The translations under genes and the position numbers were made by a program. This document shows positions 13,430 to 49,040 of a stretch of 64,000 nt of DNA, piece after piece. The DNA is from Natrononativus amylolyticus (GTDB lineage Archaea > Halobacteriota > Halobacteria > Halobacteriales > Natrialbaceae): positions 372,001 through 436,000 of the forward strand of contig NZ_CP101458.1 of NCBI RefSeq assembly GCF_024362525.1. The letters run 5' to 3'. The notes beneath the pieces are model-generated. The model made no database searches. It was not told the origin of the DNA and saw only the letters and a program-made list of their open reading frames with translations. Numbering within the stretch: the stretch's first letter is position 1; each line of letters opens with the position of its first letter.

Positions 13430-13870
13430 TCAATCCGAATACTGGTGTCGCACTGGCAGTATCGTGGCGAGGTACTCGAGAATCGCCTCCGCGCGGTCGC
13501 GATCGAGCATCACGTCCCGCACGTTCTCCTTGTCCTTGAGGTCAGGCGAGAGCACCTTCTCGCTCAGATCGGGCTTCACGGCGTCGATCGTCTCGAGGAA
13601 GCGGACGAACACGCGAAGCGTGTCCATCTGGGTCTTCTCGGTGACGGGCGCGAGGCCGCTGTTGAAGTCGCGCCGCCAGAGGCGGAACTCATGGAGGTTG
13701 CGAACCGTGAGGTCGTTCAGGTTGTCGATCTCCTTCTCGTCGGTACACCAGCGCACGAAGTGGCCGAGCCGGGATCGGTGCGATCGGAGCGTCGCTTCGG
13801 TCACTTCGCGTCACCGATTATCGAGGCACAGTTCGAGAGCGTCATCTGGAGCGATGGGTTCGAGTTCATC
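13430..13870 (-). pseudogene. XerC/D-type tyrosine recombinase (integrase), N-terminal remnant
   Basis: The minus strand encodes the SAM-like core-binding domain of a haloarchaeal phage-type integrase: DELEPIAPDDALEL, then TLRSHRSRLGHFVRWC, EIDNLNDLTVRNLHEFRLWRRD and SPDLKDKENVRDVML. Three defects are visible. There is no start codon in frame before DELEPIAP. A TGA at 13811-13813 interrupts the frame between LDNR and REVTEATLR. The frame ends at RHQYSD before the catalytic domain, so the R-H-R-Y active site is missing. It is a clear pseudogene and marks an old integration. Confidence 0.85.
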
Positions 13871-14519: not shown

Positions 14520-16574
14520 ATGGCTGTGGATGTCGTTGATGAAGGACCGATCACCTTCACAGTAGACGACGCAACCATTCGCGTTCAGGATCGTATCGAA
14601 GGTCAAACCTTCCAGTTAGCTGCGTCCGGTGACCTATCACCCCAACCGGCTCTTACCGATCTGTTCGTATTTCCCGTCGATAGTGCAATCTCGATTACTA
14701 CGACGGAACTCGAACTCGATCCTCACTTTGATGCGTATATACGGGATGAAGATGGGACGCATCTCGGTGGATTCGAGATAGGTGAACAATCATTTTCCGT
14801 CGGAACGTACTTTATCGAATTGACTGGAAGGATGAAGATCTACCTTCGAATAAGTGATGCTGGATTTTCTGCAACGTGTTCGGACCTCTTCTCGAACGAT
14901 GCTTCACTCAATATCTCGTTCGATTCAGCGAGCACAGTTTCGGTCGGTGCCCGGTCCCTTCATACTCGTCCGCAAGATACCATTACAACCTCGAATGAAC
15001 CGGACGCGATGATGGAAGCGATCTCCTATCTTGGTTCCTCGATAAAAGAGTTCTCTTGTGAACGATCGTGGCCGTCAATTCGGGGACATCCCCCACTGAT
15101 TGAACTGAGCGATTCTCTCGAGATCCCTCCAGCACTTACCAAGCCCGAAACAGGCATAACGATCAGCGTACCTCCGACGCGTGCCGATATTTACCGAATC
15201 GCTCCGCTCGTTTTCTATCTCGGTGCTGACGTAGAACCCGGCGACCGAGCCGCAATTCACTTAGACAACGGATACACGGAACCGTTACGGTCATCACATC
15301 TCTCACTGGATGAATCAGTTGACCGTCTTCTCGACACATGTATACTTATGGACTCGTTAGTACGAATCGGCGGGTACTACACGTGTTCGCGCAGAGAATA
15401 TCGGGAACTTGCGCCCGAATTACCGTTCTATCCACCGAACCTGTACAGTGAATCTCTATCCGATCAACTCATCGAGTATCTAGAGGTCCCGTTTTCAGTT
15501 ATCGAACCGTATCTACCTGAAAGACCACTAACGACTGTTCTCCACTCTGGCGAATCCCACGTCAAATTCCTTCCGTACTTGTGCAACAAGCTTGCTAAGA
15601 TCCGCGTTGAGGAAGTAGAGACCGCAACGGAACTAGATACATCTCGAACACAACCGACGGCGACTCCTCACGGACACGTACCCGGTTCACCGGAATCCGC
15701 ATATCTCGTTCACGACTCGTTTATAAATTCCCTCTCAAACCGGCCCACGACCCAAGACCGGGCCAGATTCACGTTCATAATCTCTGAAAGAGGTAGGAGA
15801 GGGTTTCAGGAGTCCATCTCCGAACATCCGATGTACGTTACTGCAGACGAGGCTGTTTCGACGATCATAGACAAACCGACAAAACGAGAACTCAAACGAG
15901 TACTTACCGACGAGAGCGACTTCTTACATTGCGATTTAGCAGTCGTTGATGATGGGTTTGAATGCGTAGATGGTGTACTCCCGGTAGACGAAATCGAGAC
16001 CGTAAGCACCAAATTCATCTCGGTCAGTGGGTGTAACGAACCTGATATCGGCGTTTCGCTCGTTGAAAAAGGTGCGGTTGCCGGGATCTGCACAGCGAGT
16101 TCGCCGTCGTCTCTCGAACTGATTCGACTATCTGGTTATCTGAGACGAGGGTTCTCCCCTGCGATGAGTGCCCAGCTCGCAGAATTATCTGCGAGCACTT
16201 CGTATCGATTTTTCGGCGATCCGACGTATACAGTAGTGGCTAACGGATCCGGGCATCTTCCAGTCTGTATGAACGTCACCTCGACCGGACTTGATACTCA
16301 TTCGGTCGACATCTATTATCAACCTACCGACCGATACTGGATCGGGAGCACCTCTACCGTTTACGATGAGTCCTCTGCCGGATCCTATCAGCTATGTGGT
16401 TCTACGATCGAACAACCGCACTCCTACACTACACCTGAAATCGTCTCGTGTCTCGAGGACGATGATTTCGTTGTCAGACTCAATGGGAGTACGTACCACG
16501 GCGAAGTGCCTCCCTCGGAATCGCTAGTCCGAAACTCCGCTAGAAGTGTGCTCTCTGATTCCCAAAAACAATAA
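14520..16574 (+). CDS. large CHAT-like (caspase-like) protein, low GC
   Basis: 684 residues from the ATG at 14520. I chose this start because MAVDVVDEGPITFTVDD aligns with the start of the paralogue at 46947; the open frame extends further upstream but that part lacks similarity. The shared core includes RGHPPLIELSDSLEIPP and RIAPLVFYLGADV. The C-terminal third has the layout of a CHAT domain: FLHCDLAVVDDGFECVDGVL (His470), then a strand and SVSGCNEPDIGVSLVEKGAVAGI (Cys505). The usual GH after the first strand is missing, so catalysis is doubtful. CHAT domains are caspase-clan proteases found in signalling and defence. GC is much lower than in the paralogue (about 42-50% in lines I counted), suggesting transfer. 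Confidence 0.7.
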   Translation: MAVDVVDEGPITFTVDDATIRVQDRIEGQTFQLAASGDLSPQPALTDLFVFPVDSAISITTTELELDPHFDAYIRDEDGTHLGGFEIGEQSFSVGTYFIELTGRMKIYLRISDAGFSATCSDLFSNDASLNISFDSASTVSVGARSLHTRPQDTITTSNEPDAMMEAISYLGSSIKEFSCERSWPSIRGHPPLIELSDSLEIPPALTKPETGITISVPPTRADIYRIAPLVFYLGADVEPGDRAAIHLDNGYTEPLRSSHLSLDESVDRLLDTCILMDSLVRIGGYYTCSRREYRELAPELPFYPPNLYSESLSDQLIEYLEVPFSVIEPYLPERPLTTVLHSGESHVKFLPYLCNKLAKIRVEEVETATELDTSRTQPTATPHGHVPGSPESAYLVHDSFINSLSNRPTTQDRARFTFIISERGRRGFQESISEHPMYVTADEAVSTIIDKPTKRELKRVLTDESDFLHCDLAVVDDGFECVDGVLPVDEIETVSTKFISVSGCNEPDIGVSLVEKGAVAGICTASSPSSLELIRLSGYLRRGFSPAMSAQLAELSASTSYRFFGDPTYTVVANGSGHLPVCMNVTSTGLDTHSVDIYYQPTDRYWIGSTSTVYDESSAGSYQLCGSTIEQPHSYTTPEIVSCLEDDDFVVRLNGSTYHGEVPPSESLVRNSARSVLSDSQKQ

Positions 16575-16684: not shown

Positions 16685-17437
16685 ATGGTCGAAGACGACG
16701 CCACTCAGAGAGGGGACGATGCTGACTCGAGCGAACCAACAACTGACAACTCGGCTCGACTGTTGCCAGACGGTGGTGAAGACGAGTCCGACGAGGAAAC
16801 GGAAGACGAAGAGGCCGACGAACCGGCAGACGACGAAGAAACGCAAGAAGAGGAGGAAACGGAGGACGAAGAGGCCGAAGAGGAGGAGGCGGACGAGGAA
16901 ACGGAAGACGCCGAGGAGGACGAGTCCGAAGAAAGCGAGGAAGACGCCGAGGAGGGTGCGGATCTCGTTCACCTCGACCTCGAGGGACTGTTCCTCGACG
17001 TGCTGGGTCTCGAGGTCGACCTGAACGAGGTCGTCCTCAACGTCTCCGCACAGCCGGGATCGAACCGACTGCTCGGCAATCTGCTGTCGGCGGTGTCGGG
17101 ACTACTCGACTCCGTCCCCGGGTCGCTGCTCGACGGCGCGAAGGACTCGATTCTCGGATTCCTCGGCGACCTATTCGGCGGTAGCGAGGACGAAGACGGC
17201 GAATCGGATGGCCCCGGTGCCGTTCGCAACGCGCTCTCCTCGATCGCAGAGCGGATCCGCGAGGCACTCACGAACGTGGTCCAGCAGCTGCCACTCGAGG
17301 AGATCATCGCCGGTGTCGTTCGGGAGCTGGTCAGCCAGTTGCTCGATAAACCGGCGTCGGCGATGGACGAGGTGACCGGCGACTCGGAGTCCGAAGAGTC
17401 CGAGGAAGACGAGCAGGAAGCGGAGGCCGAAGCATGA
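16685..17437 (+). CDS. acidic protein with hydrophobic LDLEGLFLDVLGLEVDL block (operon gene 1)
   Basis: 250 residues. Residues about 1-95 are a very acidic, low-complexity Glu/Asp tract. Then comes DLEGLFLDVLGLEVDLNEV and PGSNRLLGNLLSAVSGLLD, a hydrophobic block that recurs in many uncharacterised bacterial and archaeal proteins, followed by two amphipathic helices (SSIAERIREALTNVV, IIAGVVRELVSQLLD) and another acidic tail. There is no signal peptide. It heads a four-gene operon: its stop overlaps the next start by 4 bases. The function is unknown. The hydrophobic block might self-assemble or insert in membranes, while the acidic tracts keep it soluble in high salt; that is inference. Confidence 0.75.
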   Translation: MVEDDATQRGDDADSSEPTTDNSARLLPDGGEDESDEETEDEEADEPADDEETQEEEETEDEEAEEEEADEETEDAEEDESEESEEDAEEGADLVHLDLEGLFLDVLGLEVDLNEVVLNVSAQPGSNRLLGNLLSAVSGLLDSVPGSLLDGAKDSILGFLGDLFGGSEDEDGESDGPGAVRNALSSIAERIREALTNVVQQLPLEEIIAGVVRELVSQLLDKPASAMDEVTGDSESEESEEDEQEAEAEA

Positions 17438-17844
17438 GCGAGGAGTCGGTCGTCGACCGGCTCGATTATGAACAGATCGTCGAGGAGATCGACGTCGAGA
17501 ACATCCTCGAGGGAACCGAGTGGGAGGGCGCCGTCGACGACGAGCACCCGCTCGGCGAACAACTCGGCGGGAAGATCGGCGAGGTCGTCGGTCGGATGAT
17601 CGGCGAGGCGGTCGGCCAGATGCTCGGCGAGATGCTGATCCAGAAGATCCTCGAGAGCGGAGACGGTGAAGCCGACGATTCCGAATCTGACGAGGCGGAC
17701 GGCGACGCGGACGACGCCGACAGCGACGAGGAGGAAAGTGACGAGTCCGAGAACGGTGACGGAGAAAACGGTGAGGCCGAGGACGACGAGAGCGACGAGG
17801 AGTCCGACGACGACGAAGACGACCAGGACGATGACTCGGAGTGA
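17434..17844 (+). CDS. acidic glycine-zipper protein (operon gene 2)
   Basis: 136 residues. An N-terminal helix (ESVVDRLDYEQIVEEIDVENIL) is followed by a regular glycine zipper from about residue 44: Gly recurs every fourth position in LGGKIGEVVGRMIGEAVGQMLGE. The C-terminal half is a Glu/Asp/Ser tract. Glycine zippers let helices pack closely and occur in membrane channels, pore-forming toxins and oligomers. The start overlaps the stop of gene 1 (ATGA). It looks paralogous to the next protein in N-terminal helix plus zipper arrangement. No family or function is recognised. Confidence 0.8.
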   Translation: MSEESVVDRLDYEQIVEEIDVENILEGTEWEGAVDDEHPLGEQLGGKIGEVVGRMIGEAVGQMLGEMLIQKILESGDGEADDSESDEADGDADDADSDEEESDESENGDGENGEAEDDESDEESDDDEDDQDDDSE

Positions 17845-45280: not shown

Positions 45281-46885
45281 ATGAACGAACGGGCAGCCGA
45301 CCGTGTCGGCCGACTCCGCGAAACGACGGCCGAACTGAACGCCTGCGAATCGATCCAGGCGGTCTACGATCTCGCGGTCGCCGCCGCCGAGCGTCTCATC
45401 GAGTTCGACGCCAGCATCCTCTGTACGGTCGACGACGGCGTGTTCGTCCCACGAGCGGTAAACGTCCAGCAACTCGTTCCCAGCGACCCGCTCTCTGTCG
45501 AGGACGGCATCGCCGGCCTCACCGTTCAAAACGACCGGAGCTACGTGATCGACGACCTCGAGACGGAACCCGATGCACGGGCCACGAGCGGGGGGTACCG
45601 ATCGACGCTGTCGATCCCGCTGGCTGGTACCGGCCAGTCCGAACCCCGTGGTGTCTTTCAGTGCCACGCCACGGAGCCGGACGCCTTCTCGGAGGCCGAC
45701 CGGGAGTTCGGCCAACTGCTCGTCGCGATGCTCTCGAGTACGCTCCGTCGACTCCGGTCGGAGGCGGCGCTGAACGAGGAGCGTGACCAGTTCATCGCCC
45801 TCTTCGAGAACGTTCCCGATCCAGCGGTGCAGTACCGGATAACCGACGGCACCCATCGTATCGACGCGGCCAACTCGGCGTTCATCCGCGTGTTCGGCTA
45901 CGACGTGGATCGGATGGCCGACGACGCACTCGAGGACGTCCTGTTCTCCGAACCCAGCGATAGCGAGCGGCCCGAACTCGCCACGACCGACGACGTGAGT
46001 CGGCGAACCGACGTCGAGGTCGTTCGCGAAACGGCGACCGGCCCCCGTCCGTTCTTGCTCCGAAACGTCCCGGTCGCGACCGGCGACGGCACGACCCGCG
46101 GCTATCTCATCTACACCGATCTCACCGCACTGAAACAACGAGAGCGCGAACTCGAGCGCAAGAACGAGCGCCTCGATCAGTTCGCCGGAATCGTTGCACA
46201 CGACCTGCGAAACCCGCTGAACGTCGCGAACGGCTATCTCGAACTCATTCGCACGGAGTACCCCGACGAACCCGAGACGCTGGCCGAAGTCGCAGATGCA
46301 CACGAGCGGATGGAACGGCTCATCGACGACCTCCTCGTGCTGGCCCGCAATTCGGACGACGGCAGCCCTGACACCCTTCGTGTACCACTCGAGACGATCG
46401 CTCGGCAAGCGTGGCAGGGCGTCGAGACGACGGCGGCGACGCTCGACGTCAGCGTCGACGGGCGGATCGAGGCCGATCCCGACCGTCTGCGTCGGCTGTT
46501 CGAGAACCTGTTTCGGAACAGTCTCGAACACGGATCGGTGTCCGAGGGCGGACCCATCGACGACCACGGCCGCGAGAGCGAGAGTGGTAGTCGATCGCCT
46601 CTTTCGATTCGTGTGCTGGCGATTGCGGACGGGTTCGCCGTCGAAGACGACGGACCGGGGATCCCGACCGAACACCGGGACGACGTGTTCGACTCCGGCT
46701 ACACCGTTTCGAACGGCTCGACCGGTCTCGGCCTCGCGATCGTCCGCCAAATCGCCGACGGACACGGCTGGCAGGTCGAACTCACGGAGGAGACGAGTGG
46801 CGGTGCGCGATTCGAGTTCACGAACGTCGAGGCGACGTGGACGACCGCGACGCCGACACGGCGGCCTCGCGGAGGGTCACAATGA
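45281..46885 (+). CDS. GAF-PAS sensor histidine kinase
   Basis: 534 residues from MNERAADRVG at 45281; the frame stays open upstream but has no similarity there. Residues 15-160 form a GAF domain (IQAVYDLAVAAAERLIEFDASILC), residues 168-290 a PAS domain (FIALFENVPDPAVQYRI), then the dimerisation H-box with His307 in FAGIVAHDLRNPLN, then the ATPase domain (LFENLFRNSLEHG; EDDGPGIPTEH). There is no membrane span. The CHAT-like gene follows by 61 bases with its own strong GGAGG site, so the two probably share a transcript. Likely, the kinase controls or reports on the CHAT-like protein. Confidence 0.92.
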   Translation: MNERAADRVGRLRETTAELNACESIQAVYDLAVAAAERLIEFDASILCTVDDGVFVPRAVNVQQLVPSDPLSVEDGIAGLTVQNDRSYVIDDLETEPDARATSGGYRSTLSIPLAGTGQSEPRGVFQCHATEPDAFSEADREFGQLLVAMLSSTLRRLRSEAALNEERDQFIALFENVPDPAVQYRITDGTHRIDAANSAFIRVFGYDVDRMADDALEDVLFSEPSDSERPELATTDDVSRRTDVEVVRETATGPRPFLLRNVPVATGDGTTRGYLIYTDLTALKQRERELERKNERLDQFAGIVAHDLRNPLNVANGYLELIRTEYPDEPETLAEVADAHERMERLIDDLLVLARNSDDGSPDTLRVPLETIARQAWQGVETTAATLDVSVDGRIEADPDRLRRLFENLFRNSLEHGSVSEGGPIDDHGRESESGSRSPLSIRVLAIADGFAVEDDGPGIPTEHRDDVFDSGYTVSNGSTGLGLAIVRQIADGHGWQVELTEETSGGARFEFTNVEATWTTATPTRRPRGGSQ

Positions 46886-46946: not shown

Positions 46947-49040
46947 ATGGAGGCCGACCTCGTCGAGTACGAACTGTCCGGGACGACACTTTACGTCTCC
47001 GACGTCGGCGGAACCTCCATCAGCTTCGATCTCACCGGCTGGGATCGACTGTCAGACCCCCTGCCGTTCGACGAGCCGATCGACACGAGGGTCGTCGGCC
47101 GGCTCTCGAAGCTCCGCTACGATCTCGAGAACGTGGTAACCGTCCGCCGCCTCGACGGCGACATCCCCACACCGGATGGAACCGGCTCCCGAACGAGTCA
47201 CGAGATCGTCACCGAATCCGACACGACACTCTCGCTTCCCGGCGGCTCGTACTTTCTCCAGATCGAATCCGACATCCTCGTTCGCGTTCGGTTCGATGGC
47301 GAGGCAACGATCCGGAATCAGGCCACTGGCTCGCTCTCGATCTCGTTTCCTCACCCCACCGCAGTGACGTTCGGGTTCACGACCACGATGGGCTATCCCC
47401 GCCACGAGCTAACGATCGAACCGACGACCGGGTCGTTCGCCACCGCGCTCTCACACCTCCCGGCGACGATCCGGACGACCAGCCCGGATCGGGTCCACCG
47501 TCCGTACCGCGGGCATCCCCCGCTGCTCGAGATCGGCAGCGAGACGGCGATTCCCGACGCCGTTCGGGAACAACGGACGGACACCGGCATCGAGTTCGTC
47601 GTCCCGGACCGGTGGGAGTCGCTGTTCACCGTCGCGCCACTCGCCTATTACCTCGGCGCGACGGTCCGCACGGCCGACGGGGCGGACTCGACACCGTTGC
47701 TTCGCGCACCTGCCGTCGACTTCGCCCACGAGTTTTCGAACCTGCCGGCGTTCCGGGCAGAGACGACCGCGTTCCTCGCACGGACGTTCTTTTTCGACAT
47801 GCTGGCGTGTTGTTTCGGCCCCGACGATCCGACCCTCCTCGAGCACGACCGACTCGAGGCCGACGGCATCGACCTGACAGACTGTGCGGACGCGTCGATC
47901 GCCGAACGGGTCCTGACCTACCACGAGCTTCCGTCGAGCCTGGTCGACGAACTGGTTCCGGAATGGCCCTACCGAATGACGGTTCCCCCGTCCCCGGAGT
48001 ACGCCCCGACGGTTCCACACCTGCTCTGTGATCTGGCCGTCATCGACGCCGCCACCGGCAGGAACGAGACGAACGGGACCGACCGCGGCGCGTCCGCTCA
48101 GACGCAGGGAGGGGCGCTCGCGACGCTCGGCCGAACGAAACCGATCCGCGGTGCGGTCGGAACGCCTGGCGTCGACAGCCAGTTTTCGGCGCTTCCGGCC
48201 GCGTACGCGAACCGGCTGACCTACCTCGAGCGCGAGCGGGAGGCGGTGTCGGCTGCCGTCGTCTTCGCCGGCCAGGCGTCCGACGCTGATCGAACGCGAA
48301 TCGTCGACAGCTACCGCCGACGCGGCCGACGGCTGTCGCTCACCGTCGACCGATACGACGATCCGTCTCGAGACGAACTCGCCGACCTGCTCGAGAACGG
48401 CGTGGAGCTCCTCCACTACGTCGGCGACTCTGACGGGACAGGACTCGTGTGTGCCGACGGCGTTCTCGAGCCAGAGAGCCTCACGAGGAGTCGCACCCAG
48501 CTGGCCCAGCTCGACGCCCCGAACACCCACGATGTCGGAGCCGAACTCGTCGAACTCGGGAGCGTCGCGACCGTGAGCCGGGGGGACGCGTACCGATCGG
48601 CCGCCAGTGACGACGCGGTGACCGGGACGACCGGAACGACGATCGGTGAACTGGTACTGTACGGCCAGAGCCTCGCGACGGCACACGCTCTCGAGGCGAT
48701 CTGTGCCGACTCCGGCGTGTACGAACAGGGAGACAGCCGGGTGATCGGCGACGGTACGCACCGGTTTCTGTCGAAGTGGCGACCGAGTCACATCTGCGTA
48801 CTGACGCCCAAAGACCGGGGCGTTCGGAGCACGATTCTCTCGTTCCCCGTCGATCCGGTCGGTTCCCACTGGGTTCCCGTCTGGCACCCGGAGAAACGCC
48901 TGATGCCGGCGACGATCCGTTTCGACGTCGAGCCCGACGAACTCGCCGAGTACGTCTCGAGCAGCACCGTGCCGATCTTCTACGACGGAACGCTCTACTG
49001 GATGGAAGACCACGGCCGCCTCCTCTATCCGGTCACGTAG
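46947..49040 (+). CDS. CHAT-like (caspase-like) protein, paralogue of 14520-16574
   Basis: 697 residues from the ATG at 46947, preceded by GGAGGAGG at 46932-46939. The same blocks as in the first copy occur: RGHPPLLEIGSETAIPD and TVAPLAYYLGATV. The C-terminal CHAT-like part shows LLHYVGDSDGTGLVCADGVL (His490) with GD where active members have GH, and AQLDAPNTHDVGAELVELG, where Pro525 replaces the expected Cys. It is therefore likely a catalytically dead caspase-clan domain used as a scaffold or sensor. The N-terminal two-thirds are unique beta-rich sequence. GC is high (about 68% in one counted line), unlike the first copy. Cotranscribed with a histidine kinase. Confidence 0.7.
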   Translation: MEADLVEYELSGTTLYVSDVGGTSISFDLTGWDRLSDPLPFDEPIDTRVVGRLSKLRYDLENVVTVRRLDGDIPTPDGTGSRTSHEIVTESDTTLSLPGGSYFLQIESDILVRVRFDGEATIRNQATGSLSISFPHPTAVTFGFTTTMGYPRHELTIEPTTGSFATALSHLPATIRTTSPDRVHRPYRGHPPLLEIGSETAIPDAVREQRTDTGIEFVVPDRWESLFTVAPLAYYLGATVRTADGADSTPLLRAPAVDFAHEFSNLPAFRAETTAFLARTFFFDMLACCFGPDDPTLLEHDRLEADGIDLTDCADASIAERVLTYHELPSSLVDELVPEWPYRMTVPPSPEYAPTVPHLLCDLAVIDAATGRNETNGTDRGASAQTQGGALATLGRTKPIRGAVGTPGVDSQFSALPAAYANRLTYLEREREAVSAAVVFAGQASDADRTRIVDSYRRRGRRLSLTVDRYDDPSRDELADLLENGVELLHYVGDSDGTGLVCADGVLEPESLTRSRTQLAQLDAPNTHDVGAELVELGSVATVSRGDAYRSAASDDAVTGTTGTTIGELVLYGQSLATAHALEAICADSGVYEQGDSRVIGDGTHRFLSKWRPSHICVLTPKDRGVRSTILSFPVDPVGSHWVPVWHPEKRLMPATIRFDVEPDELAEYVSSSTVPIFYDGTLYWMEDHGRLLYPVT

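Follow-up and report, generated by a model that had tools for sequence, protein, structure and literature searches.

A pseudo-CHAT protein of Natrononativus amylolyticus and its linkage to a GAF-PAS sensor histidine kinase

The 64,000-nucleotide window of Natrononativus amylolyticus analysed in this work (contig NZ_CP101458.1, positions 372,001 to 436,000) carries two protease-like genes, here called P0001 and P0002, and raises the question of what such proteins do when their catalytic residues are altered. The original prediction, based only on the letters, described them as divergent CHAT-like paralogues that might be pseudo-proteases used for sensing or as decoys, or enzymes with shifted catalytic residues. 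It had located both genes exactly, since 46947-49040 and 14520-16574 are each an open reading frame (Table 1). A BLASTP comparison of P0001 with P0002 gave an E value of 2e-23, with 23% identity over about 470 columns, and the match was also obtained in a search of the organism's own genome (E 2.6e-19); judged by their sequences, the two are divergent paralogues whose likeness goes beyond chance. The common start attributed to them holds weakly, as the first 95 residues or so can be aligned solely through the family profile. They are, moreover, not proteins of one kind, being the outcome of two independent losses and lying in different neighbourhoods.

Table 1. Features of the two pseudo-CHAT loci; positions are those of the window unless given as residues
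Feature	Description	Position	Strand	Basis
Partner kinase	sensor histidine kinase with GAF-PAS-HisKA-HATPase domains, 61 bp upstream of P0001	45281..46885	+	Pfam, adjacency, co-divergence
P0001	pseudo-CHAT protein, 697 aa, clade P-I	46947..49040	+	open frame, AlphaFold, PDB matches, tree
P0001 part	N-terminal, beta-rich	residues ~1-146
P0001 part	middle, alpha/beta	residues ~150-370
P0001 part	linker	residues ~371-411
P0001 part	CHAT/caspase-fold domain	residues ~415-600
P0001 part	C-terminal extension	residues ~601-697
Codon Asp494	catalytic His column, end of strand 488-492	48426..48428	+	His in 167/167 intact members (213-member alignment), DSSP
Codon Cys502	Cys of GLxC.DG motif, kept in 210/213 members, intact and dead	48450..48452	+	alignment
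Codon Asp523	column Asn in 167/167 intact, Asp/Glu in 39/40 P-I	48513..48515	+	alignment
Codon Pro525	catalytic Cys column, just past strand 519-523	48519..48521	+	alignment, DSSP
purA	adenylosuccinate synthetase, convergent downstream neighbour of P0001	49101..50591	-	Pfam
P0002	pseudo-CHAT paralogue, 684 aa, clade P-II, independent loss, without adjoining histidine kinase	14520..16574	+	open frame, alignment, tree
Codon Ala474	catalytic His column of P0002	15939..15941	+	alignment
Codon Cys505	catalytic Cys column of P0002, kept by it alone among five P-II	16032..16034	+	alignment

The fold was addressed with predicted structures. The AlphaFold model of P0001, built together with 37 relatives, reached a pLDDT of 79 and a pTM of 0.83, and its best match in the PDB was the activated filament of SAVED-CHAT (8tl0, E 7e-7), followed by gingipain (2e-4), separase (4e-3) and then caspases. 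The model of an intact relative (pLDDT 85) matched 8tl0 at 4e-8, separase at 1e-5 and caspase-7 at 6e-4. Both predicted structures display the arrangement of a caspase fold, with the His position after strand 3 and the Cys position after strand 4; DSSP places Asp494 of P0001 after strand 488-492 and Pro525 after strand 519-523, and these two residues would sit where the caspase fold puts His and Cys. The CHAT-shaped C-terminus that had been proposed is borne out by these structural matches and by intact relatives that reach the Pfam CHAT profile, and the C-terminal third of the predicted P0001 structure does carry a caspase fold.

Searches with single sequences, of Pfam, NCBIfam and PADLOC with both proteins and of the PDB with P0001, returned nothing significant. 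The CHAT profile PF12770 matched neither P0001 nor P0002 even at E 10, so that the Pfam cut-off was not reached, and it matched 11 of 17 intact members (best E 1.2e-5), two intact members scoring 16 bits where the cut-off is 24. Haloferax volcanii, one of the control genomes, was not registered by PF12770, a profile that barely registers intact members (E 0.086 in the own genome). Peptidase_C14 had no match in P0001, P0002 or the 17 intact members, Peptidase_C25 was touched by two intact members (best E 0.026), and no PADLOC model of known anti-phage defence matched either protein at E 10. A profile search of the PDB with A1 gave a single, non-significant match (Ripcord, E 0.39), and the N-terminal two-thirds matched nothing in any of these searches. 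P0001 is therefore CHAT-like by predicted fold and descent, and by its residues not a CHAT protease.

As shown by the alignment of 213 family members, His and Cys are both present in 167, both missing in 43 and present singly in three, namely P0002, which keeps the Cys, and two others that keep the His; the intact fraction is inflated, because close to half of the intact set was gathered in a scan with patterns including 'FFLNACGS', and the dead members were collected by searches without that pattern. The residues to which attention had been drawn, Cys505 of P0002 and Pro525 of P0001, fall with the same numbers into the Cys column of this alignment, and the Gly-His of the His strand is indeed kept by neither protein; the catalytic dyad is absent from P0001 (Asp494/Pro525) and incomplete in P0002 (Ala474/Cys505). 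The dead members are gathered in the tree into two clades (support 0.997 and 1.0), with one further member standing alone (L220), which is a third, single loss. Clade P-I comprises 40 members, including P0001 and another paralogue of the same genome (C3:32317), and clade P-II comprises five, including P0002. Only three changes of label are needed on this tree, against at least 35 with shuffled labels, and each clade comes out as monophyletic whether the tree is built from all columns, from those outside the catalytic region or from the N-terminal ones alone (support 0.985-1.0). Since intact relatives exist outside the class (three out of four found there), the dyad is ancestral, and therefore P0001 and P0002 represent two independent losses. 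With the dyad missing in 40 of 40 P-I and five of five P-II members, the designation as pseudo-proteases appears well founded; P0001 would accordingly be non-proteolytic, although the absence of the canonical dyad leaves some room in principle for other chemistry.

The former active site of the P-I proteins has itself been remodelled. At the Asn of 'LNAC', which intact members keep without exception two positions ahead of the catalytic Cys, 36 of the 40 P-I members have Asp and three have Glu; of the five P-II members, one is acidic at this column. Of the 40, 26 also carry an acidic residue at the His column. The residues that replaced the dyad vary among P-I members, being D, E, N, R, S, P or T at 494 and P, T, A, F, S or R at 525. 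No His or Cys in the 213-member alignment is conserved in P-I alone, and therefore the proposal of shifted catalytic residues finds no support. The Cys of the GLxC.DG motif is kept in intact and dead members, and therefore its role is probably independent of the dyad. Pairwise dN/dS values ranged from 0.14 to 0.47 in P-I and from 0.06 to 0.25 in intact members (about 0.24 vs 0.12), which means that the P-I genes are constrained by purifying selection and evolve about twice as fast as the intact ones.

What distinguishes P-I from the rest of the family is its neighbour. The frame of the kinase adjoining P0001 is open from 44753, and its start at 45281 was inferred from orthologues. Among the members with enough flank to judge, a histidine kinase on the same strand adjoins 26 of 29 P-I genes, none of 142 intact genes and none of five P-II genes, and the three P-I exceptions are copies in tandem arrays in which another copy adjoins a kinase. 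The kinase lies upstream in 20 cases and downstream in six; with varied sites and either gene order represented, the pairing does not come down to a single conserved block of synteny. The Fisher value for the adjacency (1e-27) is not a true probability and overstates the case, because most of the 142 intact loci are one syntenic orthologue; the other intact clade, found at varied sites, likewise has no adjoining kinase. The domain scan recovered GAF-PAS-HisKA-HATPase in nine of nine partner kinases. When the P0001 kinase was searched in 18 genomes, its closest match in most P-I genomes adjoined a P-I gene, and the second-best kinase of its own genome (3e-111; the next, 7e-55) adjoins the other P-I paralogue, C3:32317; a few kinases of the same type were seen away from any P-I gene (e.g. 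G002:C53:235760 and G006:C1:612439). Distance matrices of kinases and pseudo-CHAT proteins were correlated with an r of 0.93 over 37 pairs, a value that includes shared species history and that none of 5000 permutations reached, and the paralogous modules of a genome tend to be matched by ones from other genomes and not by one another. Conserved adjacency and co-divergence, as looked for in a two-component partner, are thus both found for P0001 and are not found for P0002. The suggested use in sensing gains ground in this way for P0001, indirectly and through its linkage to a sensor kinase. At one locus (L197, genome G030), three dead P-I copies stand in tandem and are bordered on one side by a histidine kinase gene.

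The loss of the dyad in P-I, together with the near-constant kinase adjacency, suggests that a dead protease was reused as a signalling partner. Therefore, we hypothesize, with a probability of roughly 55%, that P0001 is the non-proteolytic partner of the adjoining kinase, a catalytically dead member of the CHAT family that derives from one loss event at the root of P-I and has since formed a two-gene module. An ancestor with intact His and Cys would have lost the dyad once at that point, and the pseudo-CHAT gene would afterwards have been inherited together with that of a GAF-PAS sensor histidine kinase. The kinase would sense a signal, and the pseudo-CHAT protein may use its retained fold and the acidic remnant of its active site to bind either the kinase or a target, adjacency alone being no proof of such binding, and may tune or relay the kinase output, the signal presumably running in that direction. 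P0002 stands for another pseudo-CHAT lineage, which arose independently and has no kinase beside it.

It is also conceivable, but rather unlikely, that P0001 acts as a decoy or dominant-negative regulator of intact CHAT paralogues of the same cell, comparable to c-FLIP for caspase-8, and binds these proteases or else their substrates or partners, and that the kinase merely controls its level or state. The same genome does encode three paralogues with an intact dyad, P0001 retains the fold and the Cys of GLxC.DG, and pseudo-caspase regulators, in which both residues are lost and the scaffold is kept, are a known outcome of evolution. Nevertheless, a decoy leaves unexplained the near-total adjacency of P-I genes to kinases, absent in P-II and in intact members, and its most obvious target, the class-wide syntenic intact copy, has been lost from this genome. 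A more elaborate reading, which we regard as a very long shot, turns the former protease pocket into an acidic site resembling a receiver, at which a divalent metal would be bound or phosphoryl taken over from the partner kinase. The replacement of the invariant Asn by an acidic residue at the end of a central strand, in 39 of 40 P-I members against none of 167 intact ones, the acidic His column in 26 of 40, the lack of this Asn change in four of the five kinase-free P-II members and the HisKA and HATPase domains of the partner kinases all speak in its favour; however, position 494 is not acidic throughout, the change from Asn to Asp may merely fill an emptied site, and the argument comes down to one conserved column plus adjacency. 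With a similarly slim chance, a caspase-fold protease domain would have become a two-component output partner, whose pocket, once the dyad was gone, acquired a fixed Asp523 and would now take up a signal, perhaps phosphoryl, from the adjoining GAF-PAS kinase.

That P0001 might still be an enzyme, by means of shifted residues such as His490 with Cys502 or of a hydrolytic acidic site, is highly improbable. His490 and Cys502 are each found in 38 of 40 P-I members, and Asp or Glu is fixed at 523, but intact members conserve the first two just as strongly, so that neither is a catalytic residue newly acquired by the dead clade; there is no conserved His or Cys peculiar to P-I, and the varied replacements at 494 and 525 are unlike a new active site. 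Decay of old CHAT proteases into pseudogenes, as the missing catalytic residues and the roughly doubled rate of P-I could be read, was rejected, given that the frames are open, that dN/dS is well below 1, that the 40 members, spread over several genomic sites, belong to a single old clade and that an acidic residue is fixed at 523.

The family to which these proteins belong is widespread. A first scan of contigs with P0001 alone found no relative, and a profile scan with intact members succeeded. All 125 genomes from the taxonomic family of N. amylolyticus contain at least one member, and so do 317 of the 341 genomes sampled from Halobacteria (93%); outside Halobacteria, matches in the sampled phylum were confined to four genomes, all of one family (L262-L265). 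One of these non-haloarchaeal relatives (L263) is without the dyad, a further independent loss. Record titles place intact members in Natronococcus, Natrinema, Halorussus, Haladaptatus and many other genera, and plasmid copies are mostly annotated as hypothetical, with one named 'CHAT domain-containing' and one 'caspase family'; neither phage records nor IMG/VR yielded relatives of the intact form. The own genome (3.99 Mb) holds six paralogues, four of them outside the window. The intact 'HY.GH...N[AG]C' pair is present in three of these four (C1:1828386, C1:2213939 and C2:602688-604532), and P0001, P0002 and C3:32317 are without it. The main intact clade occupies a fixed site, where glyA is present at 92 of the 95 loci and tbsP at 91. 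In the own genome, folD and glyA directly adjoin tbsP at that site (L195, C1:1650443-1664877); the organism has lost the class-wide syntenic intact copy and has kept three other intact and three dead paralogues. Across the class, the main intact gene stands between glyA, on the opposite strand, and tbsP (L067-L166, e.g. L087 8001-10094), and a functional link to the TbsP regulator is possible.

Dead caspase folds kept as regulators have precedents in eukaryotes, such as c-FLIP, which regulates caspase-8, the pseudo-metacaspases and other pseudo-caspases. P0001 resembles these in its dead caspase fold and differs from them in having no death domains and in its link to a two-component kinase. 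Compared with CHAT proteins proper (PF12770; caspase fold, clan CD), such as the SAVED-CHAT/CalpL-like proteases of type III CRISPR systems, TPR-CHAT (Craspase) and HetF, P0001 shares the C-terminal caspase fold by prediction, and intact family members have their His and Cys in the same places. P0001 and P0002, however, give no PF12770 match and miss the dyad, no TPR or SAVED domain was detected, the N-terminal two-thirds are different, and P0001 pairs with a histidine kinase instead of a CRISPR system. Similar in kind are the bacterial pseudo-orthocaspases, which likewise form recurrent clades with a caspase fold and without the His-Cys dyad; they belong to the p20/C14 type and come for the most part from alphaproteobacteria and cyanobacteria, and the accessible part of the survey of prokaryotic caspase homologues reports no kinase link for them (PMC6426788). 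The survey describes archaeal caspase homologues as scarce and pseudo-caspases as absent among them, with no pseudo-variant in 93 archaeal p20 sequences (PMC6426788). Neither 'CHAT' nor 'caspase' appears in the census of archaeal two-component systems (PMC5847659), and within a partial coverage of the literature no paper joining CHAT domains with haloarchaea or with archaeal two-component systems was directly on the topic; the tie of P-I to GAF-PAS histidine kinases is new here.

Haloferax volcanii has been reported to possess strong caspase-like activity, for which the responsible gene has not been assigned (PMC3615174). A caspase-fold family present in 93% of the sampled haloarchaeal genomes, mostly called hypothetical where annotation was seen, offers in its intact members concrete, class-wide candidates for such activity, a question that can be tested by deletion, whereas P0001 is predicted to be inactive. 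Both P-I and P-II have lost the dyad, but a sensor kinase is linked to P-I alone; the two dead clades thus provide a natural comparison, in which the proposed reuse of a protease fold for signalling becomes tractable.

The surroundings of the two genes deserve a brief description. P0002 is flanked on one side by a short integrase-like frame at 13430-13804 (-), with a Phage_int_SAM_1 match (E 3e-4) below the cut-off, and on the other, at 16685-17844 (+), by two very acidic proteins whose family was not recognised; the site is possibly the edge of an old mobile element. The purA gene seems to stand beside some P0001 orthologues in other genera as well (e.g. L008 and L010, where an out-of-frame purA-like reading was noted by eye), and the P-II gene of genome G008 (L224) also seems to lie near purA, recognised in an antisense frame, like P0001 of P-I.
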